Below are positions 56,169-60,348 of a stretch of DNA of 64,000 nucleotides, one piece after another (the stretch's first letter is position 1; each line of letters starts with the position of its first letter). The notes under the pieces are model-generated. The model was given only the letters and a program-made list of their open reading frames with translations, was not told where the DNA came from and made no database searches. Both the position numbers and the translations under genes were made by a program. The DNA is from Verrucomicrobiota bacterium. GTDB taxonomy: Bacteria > Verrucomicrobiota > Verrucomicrobiia > Chthoniobacterales > Chthoniobacteraceae. The stretch spans positions 1 to 64,000 of the forward strand of contig JAPLTE010000123.1 of NCBI GenBank assembly GCA_026398235.1, in the 5' to 3' direction.

Positions 56169-57347
56169 ATGGAGAAACCGATTGTTGCCAGCTACTGCAC
56201 CACGTTTCTCAAGCCGGAGATGTTGCACATTTACCGGCAGGTCAGCGCGCTGCAACGGTATGAGAGCTTCATCGTAACCAAAGAGCGGCAATGCCCGGAG
56301 CGGTATCCGTTCGGGGACATCGCCCTGCTGCCCGAGGCGCAGCAACCCCTTCTGCGGCGCTTTTATTTGAAGTTCATCCAGCGGGTTCCGGCGCTGCATT
56401 ACCGGGGCGAGATGGAGCAGCTAAAGGAGCTCTTTGGACGTCGGCGCGCGGATGTGATGCACGTTTATTTTGGCCACACCGGGGTGCATCTCCGCGCCTT
56501 TCTGGACTGGTGGGATCGCCCTTCGATCGTCTCCTTTCACGGGGCGGATGTGATGCCTCGGGAGCATCAGCCAAAATATCTCGGCGAAATGAAGCAACTC
56601 TTCGCGCTCGTGCCGCTGGTGCTGGCGCGCTCGCAATCTTTGGCGGAACGGCTGAAGGCCAACGGATGCCCTGGGGAAAAAATCCGCCTGAACCGGACCG
56701 GAATTCCACTCGCGGATTTTCCTTTGGTGCAGCGGGACATGCCGTCCGATGGAGCCTGGCATTTTGTCCAGACCTGCCGCCTGATTTCCAAGAAAGGATT
56801 GCGCACGGCCCTGCACGCGTTCGCGGAATTCCGGCGCGATTTTCCCAAGGCGACCTTCAGCATTGTCGGCGAAGGGCCGATGCGGGAGGAACTTTGCCGT
56901 CTTGCCGCCGAATTAGGCATTCTGGAGGCGGTGCGCTTTTGGGGATTTCTCGACCAAACCCAACTGAATGCGTTGTATGCGAGCGCACATCTCTTTCTGC
57001 ACCCGAGCGAGTTGACCGAAAAACAGGACCAGGAAGGAATCCCCAATTCGATGTTGGAAGCGATGTCCACAGGGCTGCCGGTTGCCGCGACGCTCCACGG
57101 CGGCATTCCCGAAGCAGTGCGCGACGGATTCTCCGGTTTTCTCGTCCCCGAGCGGGACGCCCAAGCGCTGGCGGCGGCGCTACGGCGCTTGGTGCAAGCG
57201 CCCGAACTGCTGCAGCAGATGGGCCGCCAAGCTTCGCAAAGTGTCCGTGAGGAATTTGAGCAAAGTCGCGCCGTCGCGAAGCTTGAGGCGTGCTACGACG
57301 AAGCGATCCAGATCGGCAAACCGCCGCGCATGAACCGCTCAATATGA
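56169..57347 (+). CDS. Glycosyltransferase, GT4-like (GT-B fold)
   Basis: 392 residues. GT-B pattern: N-terminal acceptor domain (MHVYFGHTGVHLRAFLDWWDRPSIVSFHGADVMPREHQ) and C-terminal donor domain (SIVGEGPMREELCRLAAELGILEAVRFWGFLDQTQLNALYASAHLFLHPSELTEKQDQEGIPNSMLEAMSTGLPVAATLHGGIPEAVRDGFSGFLVPE). The ExFGxxxxE-type donor motif is EKQDQEGIPNSMLEA. Similar to colanic acid and other exopolysaccharide transferases. 8 bases after obg; stop overlaps the next glycosyltransferase start (ATGA). Confidence 0.88.
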   Translation: MEKPIVASYCTTFLKPEMLHIYRQVSALQRYESFIVTKERQCPERYPFGDIALLPEAQQPLLRRFYLKFIQRVPALHYRGEMEQLKELFGRRRADVMHVYFGHTGVHLRAFLDWWDRPSIVSFHGADVMPREHQPKYLGEMKQLFALVPLVLARSQSLAERLKANGCPGEKIRLNRTGIPLADFPLVQRDMPSDGAWHFVQTCRLISKKGLRTALHAFAEFRRDFPKATFSIVGEGPMREELCRLAAELGILEAVRFWGFLDQTQLNALYASAHLFLHPSELTEKQDQEGIPNSMLEAMSTGLPVAATLHGGIPEAVRDGFSGFLVPERDAQALAAALRRLVQAPELLQQMGRQASQSVREEFEQSRAVAKLEACYDEAIQIGKPPRMNRSI

Positions 57348-58546
57348 GTTCTTTTGCTTACCTTTTTGAACGATTTCCCTCGTTCACTCAAACCTTCTGT
57401 TACCGCGAGGTCTTGGAAATGCGGCGGCAGGGGGTGACGGCTCCGATCTACTCCATTCGCGTGCCCAAGGACATCCCGGCAGACTGCCCGGAGGAACTCG
57501 CGCACGCCGTCTGTTACCTGCCGGAACCCGATGCGCTCGCGGCGGAAATGAAAACCTTTCGCCTGCTGGGGCGGTATCCCTGGAAAGTCATCCAGACCTT
57601 GCGCGGCTGGGGCAAACGCCCCGACAAAGGCCGCTTGCTAGCCGCCGCTTGGCTCGGCAAACGGCTCCAAAAACAAGGGGTCCGCCATGTCCACGCCCAT
57701 TTTGCGGGTATTGCTGCGCGCACGGCGTACTGGATCAAAGCGTTTTACGGAATCACCTTTAGTTTTACCGGGCATGCCAACGACATGTTCTGCGAGACGG
57801 ATTTCCCCGTCACCCTCGGCGACCTCGTGCGCGAAGCCGGGTTTGTGGTGACGGAAGCGGATTTCAGTTGCAGATGGCTGCGCGAGCGGCACCCGGCTCA
57901 TTCCGCAAAAATCCACCGGGTTTACAACGGGATTGGCTCCGAGGCTTTCCTTGAGCGCAATCCTGCCCCGGGACGCCCGTGTTTGCTCTCGGTGGGCCGT
58001 TGCATCGAGAAAAAAGGTTTCCGGGATCTGATCGATGCCTGTGCTCTCTTGCGGGATCGGGGGCTCGATTTTGAATGCGCCATTGTGGGTGGCGGCCCGT
58101 TGGAGGAGTCGCTCCGGGGTCGCGTCGCCGAACTCCATTTGCAAAAGATCGTGACCCTTGCCGGCCCCCAGCCGCAGGAGGAAGTGCGCAGGAGGTTATC
58201 CAATGCGCATGGATTCGTGCTGGCGTGTGCGACGGAACCGGACGGCGGAATGGATAATTTTCCCACGGTCATTATCGAAGCGATGGCGGCGGGACTGCCT
58301 GTGGTCTCAACCCGGCTTGCGGCAGTGCCCGAGATGGTCGAGCACGGAGTGAGCGGCTTATTGGTGGCAGAAAAGCAGCCCGAATCCTTGGCCGATGCCA
58401 TGGAAATCATCCTCCGAGACCCGGTCAAGGCAAGACAGTTTGGCCTTTGCGGCAAAGCGGCCGTTACCGAGCGGTTCGTAGTGCAAGTGACTGCCGGAGA
58501 GCTTAAAAACCTCCTGGAGAATGCAGTGAGCAAGCGACGGGAATAA
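57344..58546 (+). CDS. Second GT4-like glycosyltransferase
   Basis: 400 residues from ATG 57344. N-terminal FAYLFERFPSFTQTFCYREVLEMRRQG and HVHAHFAGIAARTAYW, VYNGIGSEAF, then the donor domain LLSVGRCIEKKGFRDLIDAC, GGGPLEESLRGRVAEL and EPDGGMDNFPTVIIEAMAAGLPVVSTRLAAVPEMVEHGVSGLLV. Probably works with the first glycosyltransferase on one glycan; the two overlap by ATGA. Its TAA stop (58544-58546) is at the left border of the MITE-like element, and the same TAA is repeated at the right border. Confidence 0.88.
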   Translation: MSSFAYLFERFPSFTQTFCYREVLEMRRQGVTAPIYSIRVPKDIPADCPEELAHAVCYLPEPDALAAEMKTFRLLGRYPWKVIQTLRGWGKRPDKGRLLAAAWLGKRLQKQGVRHVHAHFAGIAARTAYWIKAFYGITFSFTGHANDMFCETDFPVTLGDLVREAGFVVTEADFSCRWLRERHPAHSAKIHRVYNGIGSEAFLERNPAPGRPCLLSVGRCIEKKGFRDLIDACALLRDRGLDFECAIVGGGPLEESLRGRVAELHLQKIVTLAGPQPQEEVRRRLSNAHGFVLACATEPDGGMDNFPTVIIEAMAAGLPVVSTRLAAVPEMVEHGVSGLLVAEKQPESLADAMEIILRDPVKARQFGLCGKAAVTERFVVQVTAGELKNLLENAVSKRRE

Positions 58547-58874
58547 GAAGCTGTCTAAAAAATTCGGCGACGAGCGAGTAACGCAGTCAGAGCCCGTTTA
58601 CACCTCTTGCCTGAAAGGTTGCAGCCGATCAAAGCGGCGCGCGTCAGCCGCCGCACGCGCGGGAGCGCGAACCGCAACTGGCCTCAGGCCAGCGCGCGGC
58701 AGCGCGAAAGGGGTCCAGCGTCACGCTGGCTCTTGCCCTTTGGGTTGCGCATCTTTTGGCGCTGGCCTGCGTTGCTCGTCGGTCGCAGATCCTCAGATTT
58801 GCTCCCTCCGCACCGCCTTGGCCAACCCTAAAACCTGCTGCAACGCACCCCGCTCCCAATTTTTAGACAGCTTC
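58547..58874. mobile_element. MITE-like element with terminal inverted repeats and TAA duplications
   Basis: A 328-bp element with ends GAAGCTGTCTAAAAA at 58547 and its reverse complement ending at 58874 (one A extra on the left run). TAA stands directly on each side (58544-58546 and 58875-58877), as a 3-bp target duplication would. An inner inverted repeat pairs GACGAGCGAGTAACGCAG (58569-58586) with CTGCGTTGCTCGTC (58767-58780). No transposase is encoded; the interior open frames are low complexity. It may be mobilised by an IS element elsewhere in the genome. Confidence 0.65.
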
Positions 58875-58958
58875 TAAGACGAACCGTGCAGGAATGTCCA
58901 TTCTATTTGCAACTACGTCCATTCCCTCTCACAGCGAAACATGCTGGAATCACCGCAC

Positions 58959-58986
58959 ATCCCCAATCCCCAATCCCCAATCCCCA
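58959..58986. repeat. Four-copy ATCCCCA tandem repeat
   Basis: The 7-base unit ATCCCCA occurs four times in tandem, ending 12 bases before the fucP-like start. It is upstream of the sugar operon and could change length by slippage, altering expression. The rest of 58878-58998 holds no gene. Confidence 0.6.
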
Positions 58987-58998
58987 AGCCCCTATAAG

Positions 58999-60348
58999 AT
59001 GAAATCAACCAAACGTGTTTCCCTCATCACAAGTTCCGACGGGAGCAATTACCTGCTCCCGTTCATATTGGTAACCAGCTTATTCCTGCTATGGGGGGTT
59101 GCGCACAGCATCCTGGATATTTTGAATAAGCATTTCCAAAATGTGCTGGCGTTGAACAGGGCGCAATCTGGATTCGTGCAGTTTGCCTTGTTTATGGGCT
59201 ATTTCATCATGGCCGTTCCCGGAGGGCTCTTTATCAAACGTTTCGGATATAAAAGCGGAATTATCTTTGGCCTGACCCTTTTTGCTCTGGGTGCCTTCCT
59301 CTTTTATCCTGCCGCCGCCTATGGCCGGTTCTTCCCCTTTCTATTGGCCTTGTTTATTTTGGGTTCAGGCTCTGCCATCCTCGAAACCGCCGCCAATCCT
59401 TACTCATCAGCGCTAGGACCAAAGGAAACCGGTCCACAGCGCATTAATTTCTCCCAATCTTTCAACGGGCTCGGGCAAATACTGGGGCCATTGATGGGTG
59501 GGCTACTGGTATTTGGTGCCCAAAAAAGAGCAGGCGATGGGAAATTCGATTCATTGCTGACGCCTTATATGTTGATTGGAGTTGTGGTGTCGCTGGTAGC
59601 TTTGGCTTTTCTCGTGACTCCCATGCCTAACATTCAGGAAGGCAACGAAGAGGAGGGCGAAGAGAACCCGCCAATGAAGGAATTGTTAAAGCATCCCTTT
59701 TTCATTATGGCGGTGCTGGCTCAATTCTTGTATGTGGCCGCGCAAACCGGGGTGAACTCGTTTTTCATCAATTATTCCATAGAAGAAGTGAAGGACATCT
59801 TCACCCCCGTAAAAGCCGCAATGGCACACCTCGGGTATTTCGGCGAAGTGTTTATGCCCAATAACCCCGAACAGGCATCCTCTCTCTTGCTCGCCTTTGG
59901 CGGGCTCACGCTATTCTGGATAGGCCGGATTATCGGGACTTATTTAATGAAATTCTTTTCCCCCAGCAAGTTGCTGATGATTTATGCCCTGATCAATACA
60001 GTCCTGATCTTTTTGGTGGTCCTCACCCTGGGCACCGTTTCCATCATCGCCTTGTTCGGTTGTTATTTCTTTATGTCGATCATGTTTCCCACCATTTTTG
60101 CGCTGGGAATTCGCGACTTGGGTGCCTTGACCAAAAAAGGAGCTTCTTTCATCGTCATGGCAGTCGTTGGCGCCGCATTATGTCCTCCAATCATGGGAGC
60201 CATTGCAGATTGCTATGGCATGGCCATCGGATTCCTGATCCCCATGATTTGTTTTGCCTACATTTTTTTCTTCGCCCTGATCGGAGTCAAAAAAGAAAGA
60301 ATTCCGCAGAGCCTTGAAGCAATCGCAGACAAGAAAGGAGCATTATGA
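58999..60348 (+). CDS. Fucose-type MFS sugar:proton symporter
   Basis: 449 residues, about 12 membrane segments. FucP-like features: LLPFILVTSLFLLWGVAHSILDILNKHFQNVLALNRAQSGFVQFALFMGYFIMAVPGGLFIKRFGYKSGI, ILETAANPYSSALGP, and ISQ-like NFSQSFNGLGQILGPL. A member of the L-fucose/glucose/galactose symporter group. ATG 58999 is chosen; earlier in-frame ATG 58894 lies in repeat sequence. The gene is more AT-rich than obg and the glycosyltransferases. Stop overlaps the aldo-keto reductase start (ATGA). Confidence 0.85.
   Translation: MKSTKRVSLITSSDGSNYLLPFILVTSLFLLWGVAHSILDILNKHFQNVLALNRAQSGFVQFALFMGYFIMAVPGGLFIKRFGYKSGIIFGLTLFALGAFLFYPAAAYGRFFPFLLALFILGSGSAILETAANPYSSALGPKETGPQRINFSQSFNGLGQILGPLMGGLLVFGAQKRAGDGKFDSLLTPYMLIGVVVSLVALAFLVTPMPNIQEGNEEEGEENPPMKELLKHPFFIMAVLAQFLYVAAQTGVNSFFINYSIEEVKDIFTPVKAAMAHLGYFGEVFMPNNPEQASSLLLAFGGLTLFWIGRIIGTYLMKFFSPSKLLMIYALINTVLIFLVVLTLGTVSIIALFGCYFFMSIMFPTIFALGIRDLGALTKKGASFIVMAVVGAALCPPIMGAIADCYGMAIGFLIPMICFAYIFFFALIGVKKERIPQSLEAIADKKGAL

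Follow-up and report, generated by a model that had tools for sequence, protein, structure and literature searches.

MITEs are commonly regarded as degenerate leftovers of insertion sequences without a function of their own. Among the elements described so far, BrickBuilt of Porphyromonas gingivalis resembles the one examined here in that it is non-coding, has ends of IS5 type and is repetitive inside, but its interior consists of tandem 23-nt repeats, the target duplications vary, and no facing hairpin pair is described in the part of the source available (PMC4596501). QMITE2 of Coxiella is likewise a MITE that lies mainly behind genes and whose palindromic inner part also occurs in other genera, but it has 7-11-nt duplications and carries a GTAG REP inside, a comparison made by description and not by sequence (PMC5896051, available in part). 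A further element, Chunjie of Geobacter, is named in the accessible part of PMC10969869. By motif letters or by topic, no description of the hairpin module reported below was found in open-licence literature, to the extent that the sources are available (including PMC10969869, PMC4596501, PMC3196728, PMC4853749 and PMC5896051).

We examined a 328-bp segment (58547-58874) that lies, by direct reading of the sequence, between a glycosyltransferase gene and an MFS gene in a 64,000-nucleotide stretch of a Verrucomicrobiota genome (the whole stretch is referred to as the window; Table 1). Its ends are complementary at 15/15 positions, with a perfect stretch no longer than 15, a TAA stands on both sides, the left one being the stop of the upstream glycosyltransferase frame, and no ORF of at least 80 aa is contained in the 328 bp. 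In all of these respects the initial annotation, which had described terminal inverted repeats of 15 bp, TAA flanks, insertion exactly at the gene's stop and no encoded transposase, was borne out. The inner inverted repeat that it had noted is real as well (an 11-bp pair at 58685-58695 and 58759-58769), but the main structure is the H2 hairpin instead. Folded as single-stranded DNA, the segment gives z = -4.1. With a probability of about 0.85, we read it as a type II MITE moved by an IS5-family transposase and descended from a two-hairpin ancestor, whose hairpin module is common to two phyla, where it is found with other ends.

Table 1. Features of the window copy and its neighbours. R1 is a covariance model built from 20 aligned modules of about 80 nt.
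Feature	Position	Strand	Basis
Glycosyltransferase, GT4-type, 418 aa, upstream	57290..58546	+	ORF; Pfam PF00534 E 8e-33, PF13692
Left target-site copy TAA, the glycosyltransferase stop codon	58544..58546	+	Sequence, flank table
Left terminal inverted repeat GAAGCTGTCTAAAAA	58547..58561	+	Repeat comparison
Junction of 66-bp deletion, GGCGA (5 bp) common to both sides; 5' half of H1 lost	58566..58570	+	Alignment with L002
H1 hairpin, 3' half only	58566..58603	+	Copy alignment; R1 gives no H1 match here
19-nt H1-H2 spacer, first copy	58604..58622	+	Direct repeat D1
Inserted short-palindrome block; found alone in same-genus genomes	58625..58729	no strand	Alignment and relatives' loci
Spacer, second copy, 74% identical	58730..58748	+	Direct repeat D1
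H2 hairpin module, intact; conserved internal loop, covarying stems	58754..58833	-	R1 77.7 bits, E 4.6e-17 (this module is among the 20 used to build R1)
Right terminal inverted repeat TTTTTAGACAGCTTC	58860..58874	+	Repeat comparison
Right target-site copy TAA	58875..58877	+	Sequence
MFS transporter, downstream	58894..60348	+	ORF; PF07690

The initial annotation had tied its MITE reading to the presence of further copies in the genome. This genome is a fragmented MAG of 2.58 Mb in 144 contigs (95% complete), in which the 328-bp segment as BLAST query returned 45 pieces and the 15-mer end, with up to 2 mismatches, occurred 57 times (27+30), compared with 0+0 occurrences of a reversed control pattern; the end repeat is therefore not a product of chance. 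Grouped by hand, 52 intact ends fall at about 34 sites, 18 of which hold a complete copy and 16 a single end. A TNA triplet lies just outside 49/52 of these ends (TTA in 21, TAA in 20, TGA in 5 and TCA in 3, with 3/52 having no TNA), and complete copies have TNA on both sides in 17/18 cases, with identical triplets in 12/18 (TAA/TAA at the window copy) and unequal ones in 6/18. Complete members measure 155-432 bp, and identity among 12 of them ranges from 85.5 to 99.6% over aligned columns, with a median of 92%. The MITE reading was thus upheld: the copies are dispersed, shorter than 500 bp and without a transposase gene, they carry terminal inverted repeats (TIRs) and target-site duplications, and a parent with matching ends occurs in other genomes. 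Two exact 15-bp ends stand alone, each with TAA or TTA in front (L229, G000:C37:35614-35628; L230, G000:C109:11436-11450); they run straight into ordinary intergenic sequence with terminator-like palindromes, and no second end was seen at either. In another genome of the window's genus, a 24-bp remnant, TCA-GAAGCTGTCTAAAAATTGAGCTTC-TTA (L148:1256 onwards), resembles an element of which only the two ends remain.

We take TNA duplication to be a mark of the IS1031 subgroup of the IS5 family. The initial annotation had likewise suggested the IS5 family from the duplication and had added that the parent was not identified; the suggestion proved right, and the second statement holds for the element's own genome, where PF01609, PF13586 and the protein of locus L157 all gave 0 matches, but not beyond it. 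With no matching transposase found in its own genome, the family's present mobility is only a possibility. The parent type was found in other genomes, as IS5-family insertion sequences of 879/880 bp with the same ends and target. The full element at L184 spans 879 bp, with a 252-aa transposase frame open from its ATG and flanks CTCA/TTAG, and that at L185 spans 880 bp, with flanks CTAA/TAAG and one internal stop; their proteins are 79% and 82% identical, respectively, to the L157 protein, which matches the IS5-family model NF033580 at 208.6 bits (cut-off 110) and also PF01609 and PF13340. The stop TAG of the transposase lies inside the end repeat in both L157 and L184. These NF033580-type elements (DUF4096 + DDE_Tnp_1) agree with the window MITE in their TIRs, to within 1-2 bases, in the C-TNA-G target and in the triplet duplication, but unlike it they have a transposase inside and no double-hairpin core.

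More widely, TNA followed by the 16-bp end was found at 97 or more loci in genome contigs, mostly of Bacteroidota, with some in Verrucomicrobiota, Pseudomonadota and Desulfobacterota, and among the matches listed complete pairs are mostly 110-250 bp long and non-coding. Such short MITEs of Bacteroidota, Gallionella and Desulforhabdus have the same 16-bp ends and the TAA/TTA duplications, but, unlike the window family, yielded no hairpin module where tested. PF13586 transposases adjoin a matching end in L157 and L068/L175, decayed ones do so in L109/L165, and like ends with TAA/TTA occur in the relatives L156, L164 and L178. Ends and target are thus solidly those of an IS5-family MITE, and the same ends and targets are present on IS5-family elements elsewhere. 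We infer that an IS5-family DDE transposase would act in trans, recognising the GAAGCTGTCTAAAAA ends, and would open the C-TNA-G target with a 3-base stagger, the fill-in of which would duplicate TNA.

Alignment of 17 copies revealed a canonical form of about 269 bp, composed of a TIR, the H1 hairpin, a short 28-nt spacer, an inverted H2 hairpin and the second TIR. As single-stranded DNA, a canonical copy folds at -69.9 kcal/mol, compared with -46.1 kcal/mol when shuffled (z -6.4), into a closed TIR stem bearing both hairpins. Longer copies have palindromes within the spacer and, in the window copy, spacer sequence on both sides of them. Read from the alignment, the window copy is a damaged derivative of this structured two-hairpin element, a point overlooked in the initial annotation: it has lost half of one hairpin and gained a palindrome block. 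Bases 1-24 of the 328-bp element correspond to bases 1-23 of the sister copy L002, and its bases 20-328 correspond to L002 86-394. The second, facing module is consequently missing from the window copy, where half of H1 is deleted, and is present in 11 sister copies. To give the window copy, the spacer of the canonical element would have taken up the palindrome block and H1 would have lost 66 bp by deletion.

The palindromes of this block also form intergenic clusters in genomes of the same genus (L031-L040, L044 and L049), where CGCGCGG.AGCGCG, CCAGCGTCACGCTGG and GGCCTCAGGCC occur without the element; they have entered the MITE spacer as well, at window positions 58625-58729, apparently flanked there by two spacer copies. 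REPIN/BIME elements are pairs of short palindromes between genes, REPINs being marked by GTAG/CGTC tags and mobilised by RAYT (Y1) transposases, and the block has their general look, whereas the window element as a whole differs from them in that its TIRs go with a TNA duplication and its ends are of IS5 type. The block also overlaps a weak match to Rfam sX2 (58669-58730; E 0.58, 17.1 bits compared with a gathering score of 40).

The hairpins themselves proved more constant in form than in sequence of their stems. Among the 20 aligned modules, most of the loop words AAGGCG.GAG..GGAGC and GTGACCGACGAGCAACGC is conserved, and the 14-bp outer stem and the inner stem change on both sides. Across 25 pairs, 92.2% of cells are paired, double changes occur in 21/25 pairs, and covariation reaches 0.643, compared with 0.191 after shuffling (0/500) and at most 0.172 when slid, in a set of modules chosen for mutual resemblance. 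R1 applied to 72 of the loci retrieved returned 102 matches with 91.8% of cells paired and a covariation of 0.783, compared with 0.202, in an alignment that is itself fitted to R1; in both sets related copies inflate the covariation counts. In the outer stem, non-Watson-Crick cells on the module's own strand are G-T in 83 cases and A-C in 20, mostly with T on the 5' arm, an excess that may tell which strand folds, the related copies among them not being independent.

The arrangement of modules is regular as well. Nearby pairs occur at 28 loci (not counting L292, where two matches lie far apart on the same strand), and in all of them a + module is followed by a - module, so that the two face each other; the spacer measures 27-29 nt in 20 of the pairs, 50 nt in L307, and more in 7 own-genome copies with the palindrome block. 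By a simple motif rule, 24 of the 28 pairs combine a loop variant containing CCGA with a variant without it, 4 have CCGA in neither module, and 0 have it in both. At L264:1840-1920, in genome G392, the contig bears a third module that is not part of the paired element and whose arms are likewise self-complementary. The module may well be kept because it acts in single-stranded, folded form, either as extruded DNA or as a transcript, and its conserved loops offer a concrete starting point for asking how certain MITEs came to be so successful at spreading. Of the roles it might have, we favour help with mobilisation, or with tolerance next to gene ends, but only as a guess that is less likely than not to be right.

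Strong covariation around conserved internal loops, together with insertions just behind genes, could also be read as the mark of a double-hairpin core that is primarily a structured RNA or an mRNA 3'-end element (a terminator, a stabiliser or a small RNA) and was picked up by transposon ends. We consider this somewhat unlikely, given that a pattern search of 58300-59100 found no intrinsic terminator or sigma-70 promoter, that no Rfam 15 family scores above its gathering score for the element or its modules (the weak matches lie off the modules), and that the two modules stand on opposite strands, so that one transcript would hold only one of them in its own orientation. Alternatively, the covariation may be unselected. 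Quasi-palindrome correction would keep the arms of a hairpin complementary, and hairpin-templated repair during replication would fit the finding that arms are wholly different between element families yet still complementary; such repair, however, leaves unexplained the conserved loop sequence, the constant facing orientation and the 27-29-nt spacing, and we judge it unlikely.

With regard to the insertion site, the initial annotation held that the target duplication supplies the glycosyltransferase stop codon. This is literally true, but with TAA on either flank the stop must already have been present in the target and been copied. Whatever N is, C-TNA-G includes a stop codon on one of its two strands, and TTA together with the element's first G rebuilds TAG, as seen at ORF ends in L002, L003, L005, L224, L228 and L236. 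Given such a target and an element whose first base is G, a gene hit in its stop codon would have TAA, TGA or TAG rebuilt and its protein left intact, as probably happened at the glycosyltransferase. At 12/52 ends the junction coincides with the stop of an ORF of 90 aa or more; when 10 of these ORFs were compared with Pfam (leaving out the window's gene, which was scanned separately, and a second ORF at L224), 4 scored above the cut-off (L224, L228, L234 and L236), 1 matched weakly below it (L005) and 5 had no match. A Pfam-supported stop is therefore hit at 5-6/34 own-genome sites, the window's gene included, and 14-21% of TNA-type sites outside genes within the window overlap a gene's stop. 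There is thus no excess of stop-codon insertions in the own genome (P 0.4 or more), the coincidence is about what chance gives, and specific targeting was dropped as an explanation there. Also rejected as a stop-codon site was L014, where a longer frame, judged GltD-like by eye, ends 2 nt away and the 255-aa ORF has no Pfam match. As for the initial annotation's comparison with relatives, orthologous glycosyltransferases in four genomes of the same genus (65-79% identity) indeed have no element behind them, but in each of the four another gene follows downstream, and none offers a clean empty site.

In other genomes the picture leans towards gene ends. For 37 complete copies, of which the 3 inside called ORFs were dropped and 34 used, and with genes called by a crude longest-ORF rule, the insertion overlaps a stop in 6/34 cases compared with 87/1295 pooled control sites (P 0.024-0.027; P 0.0002 with a sparse 5-mer-matched null) and lies within 50 nt of a stop in 18/34 compared with 308/1295 (P 0.0002-0.0003). 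These figures would suit an element or transposase that homes in on stop codons or the 3' ends of genes and does not land there by chance, but the own-genome counts speak against it, the crude gene calls and the dropped sites weaken the comparison, and a bias towards gene 3' ends is also expected from selection against promoter and gene damage, which is the simplest reason for it; we regard such seeking as quite improbable. Taken by itself, the stop-codon insertion is the instructive but ordinary behaviour of a MITE, and it is the interior that matters more. In genome G853, a module-bearing element at L311, with TAA on either side and GAACCTATCCCAGTAGG at its start, begins exactly at the apparent stop of an H-NS-like gene (by eye).

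Descent of a type I MITE from an IS5 element simply by internal deletion, with a decayed transposase as its interior and only incidental hairpins, would account for the TIR and target common to the element and IS5-family L184, L185 and L156, but is very improbable when the parents resemble the element in its ends only (by eye), the interior folds and covaries as described, and R1 finds no module in any of seven IS5-bearing loci (L156, L157, L164, L178, L180, L184 and L185). Under the type II reading the hairpins do not come from the tested parents. R1 also found no module in 37 loci with the same TIR ends, the 24-bp remnant at L148 included, and across the 45 sources made up of IS5 loci, same-TIR loci and the window, the window was the sole match.

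In two phyla, the module does occur in MITE-like elements whose ends are different. A BLAST search of relatives with the element uncovered similar hairpins in two genomes of another family (G043/G067), where the element ends read CTAG followed by TGTCCTGTCCCC, and a wider search added modules in G372, G382, G392 and G433, again with other ends, although in G372 the hairpin has no clear ends. An exact-pattern search of 194 genomes of the phylum returned the window only, but the covariance model found more: at E 1e-4 and with strict filters in both surveys, R1 matched 20/288 sampled Verrucomicrobiota genomes, in 10 families, and 55/299 sampled genomes of Pseudomonadota, the phylum of the Gallionella MAG G101. 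Plasmids and phages gave chance-level BLAST matches or none, and the viral-contig pattern search gave 0. Inverted ends of at least 15/18 with an accepted flank enclose 24/41 module loci outside the own genome, compared with 0/82 control positions at the same loci, and 17 have none; only 5 of the 24 flanks (L271, L284, L285, L294 and L311) are unambiguous direct TNA repeats, the others being self-complementary or odd (TA, GGCC, TCGA, tta/taa) and perhaps belonging to longer inverted repeats and not to duplications.

These comparisons lend good computational support to the core as a separate, structured and phylum-crossing unit. A covarying module of fixed geometry on unrelated ends would mean that part of a MITE can be preserved from one phylum to another regardless of which transposon mobilises it, and the covariance model can be used for annotating such MITEs. 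Going further, we tentatively propose, with the odds leaning somewhat against it, that two unlike, facing modules about 28 nt apart are the mobile cassette itself, carried on many IS-type ends in Verrucomicrobiota and Pseudomonadota as a general and previously undescribed functional core of MITEs that acts as folded ssDNA or RNA, of which the window element would be a damaged descendant. In G382, at least 16 module copies, 8 of them with the same top score, lie within ends GAACCTGTTTGGATAA flanked by TGA, TTA or TAA duplications (L265, L269 and L271; TGA/TGA and TTA/TTA among them), and these elements are probably a recently active relative.
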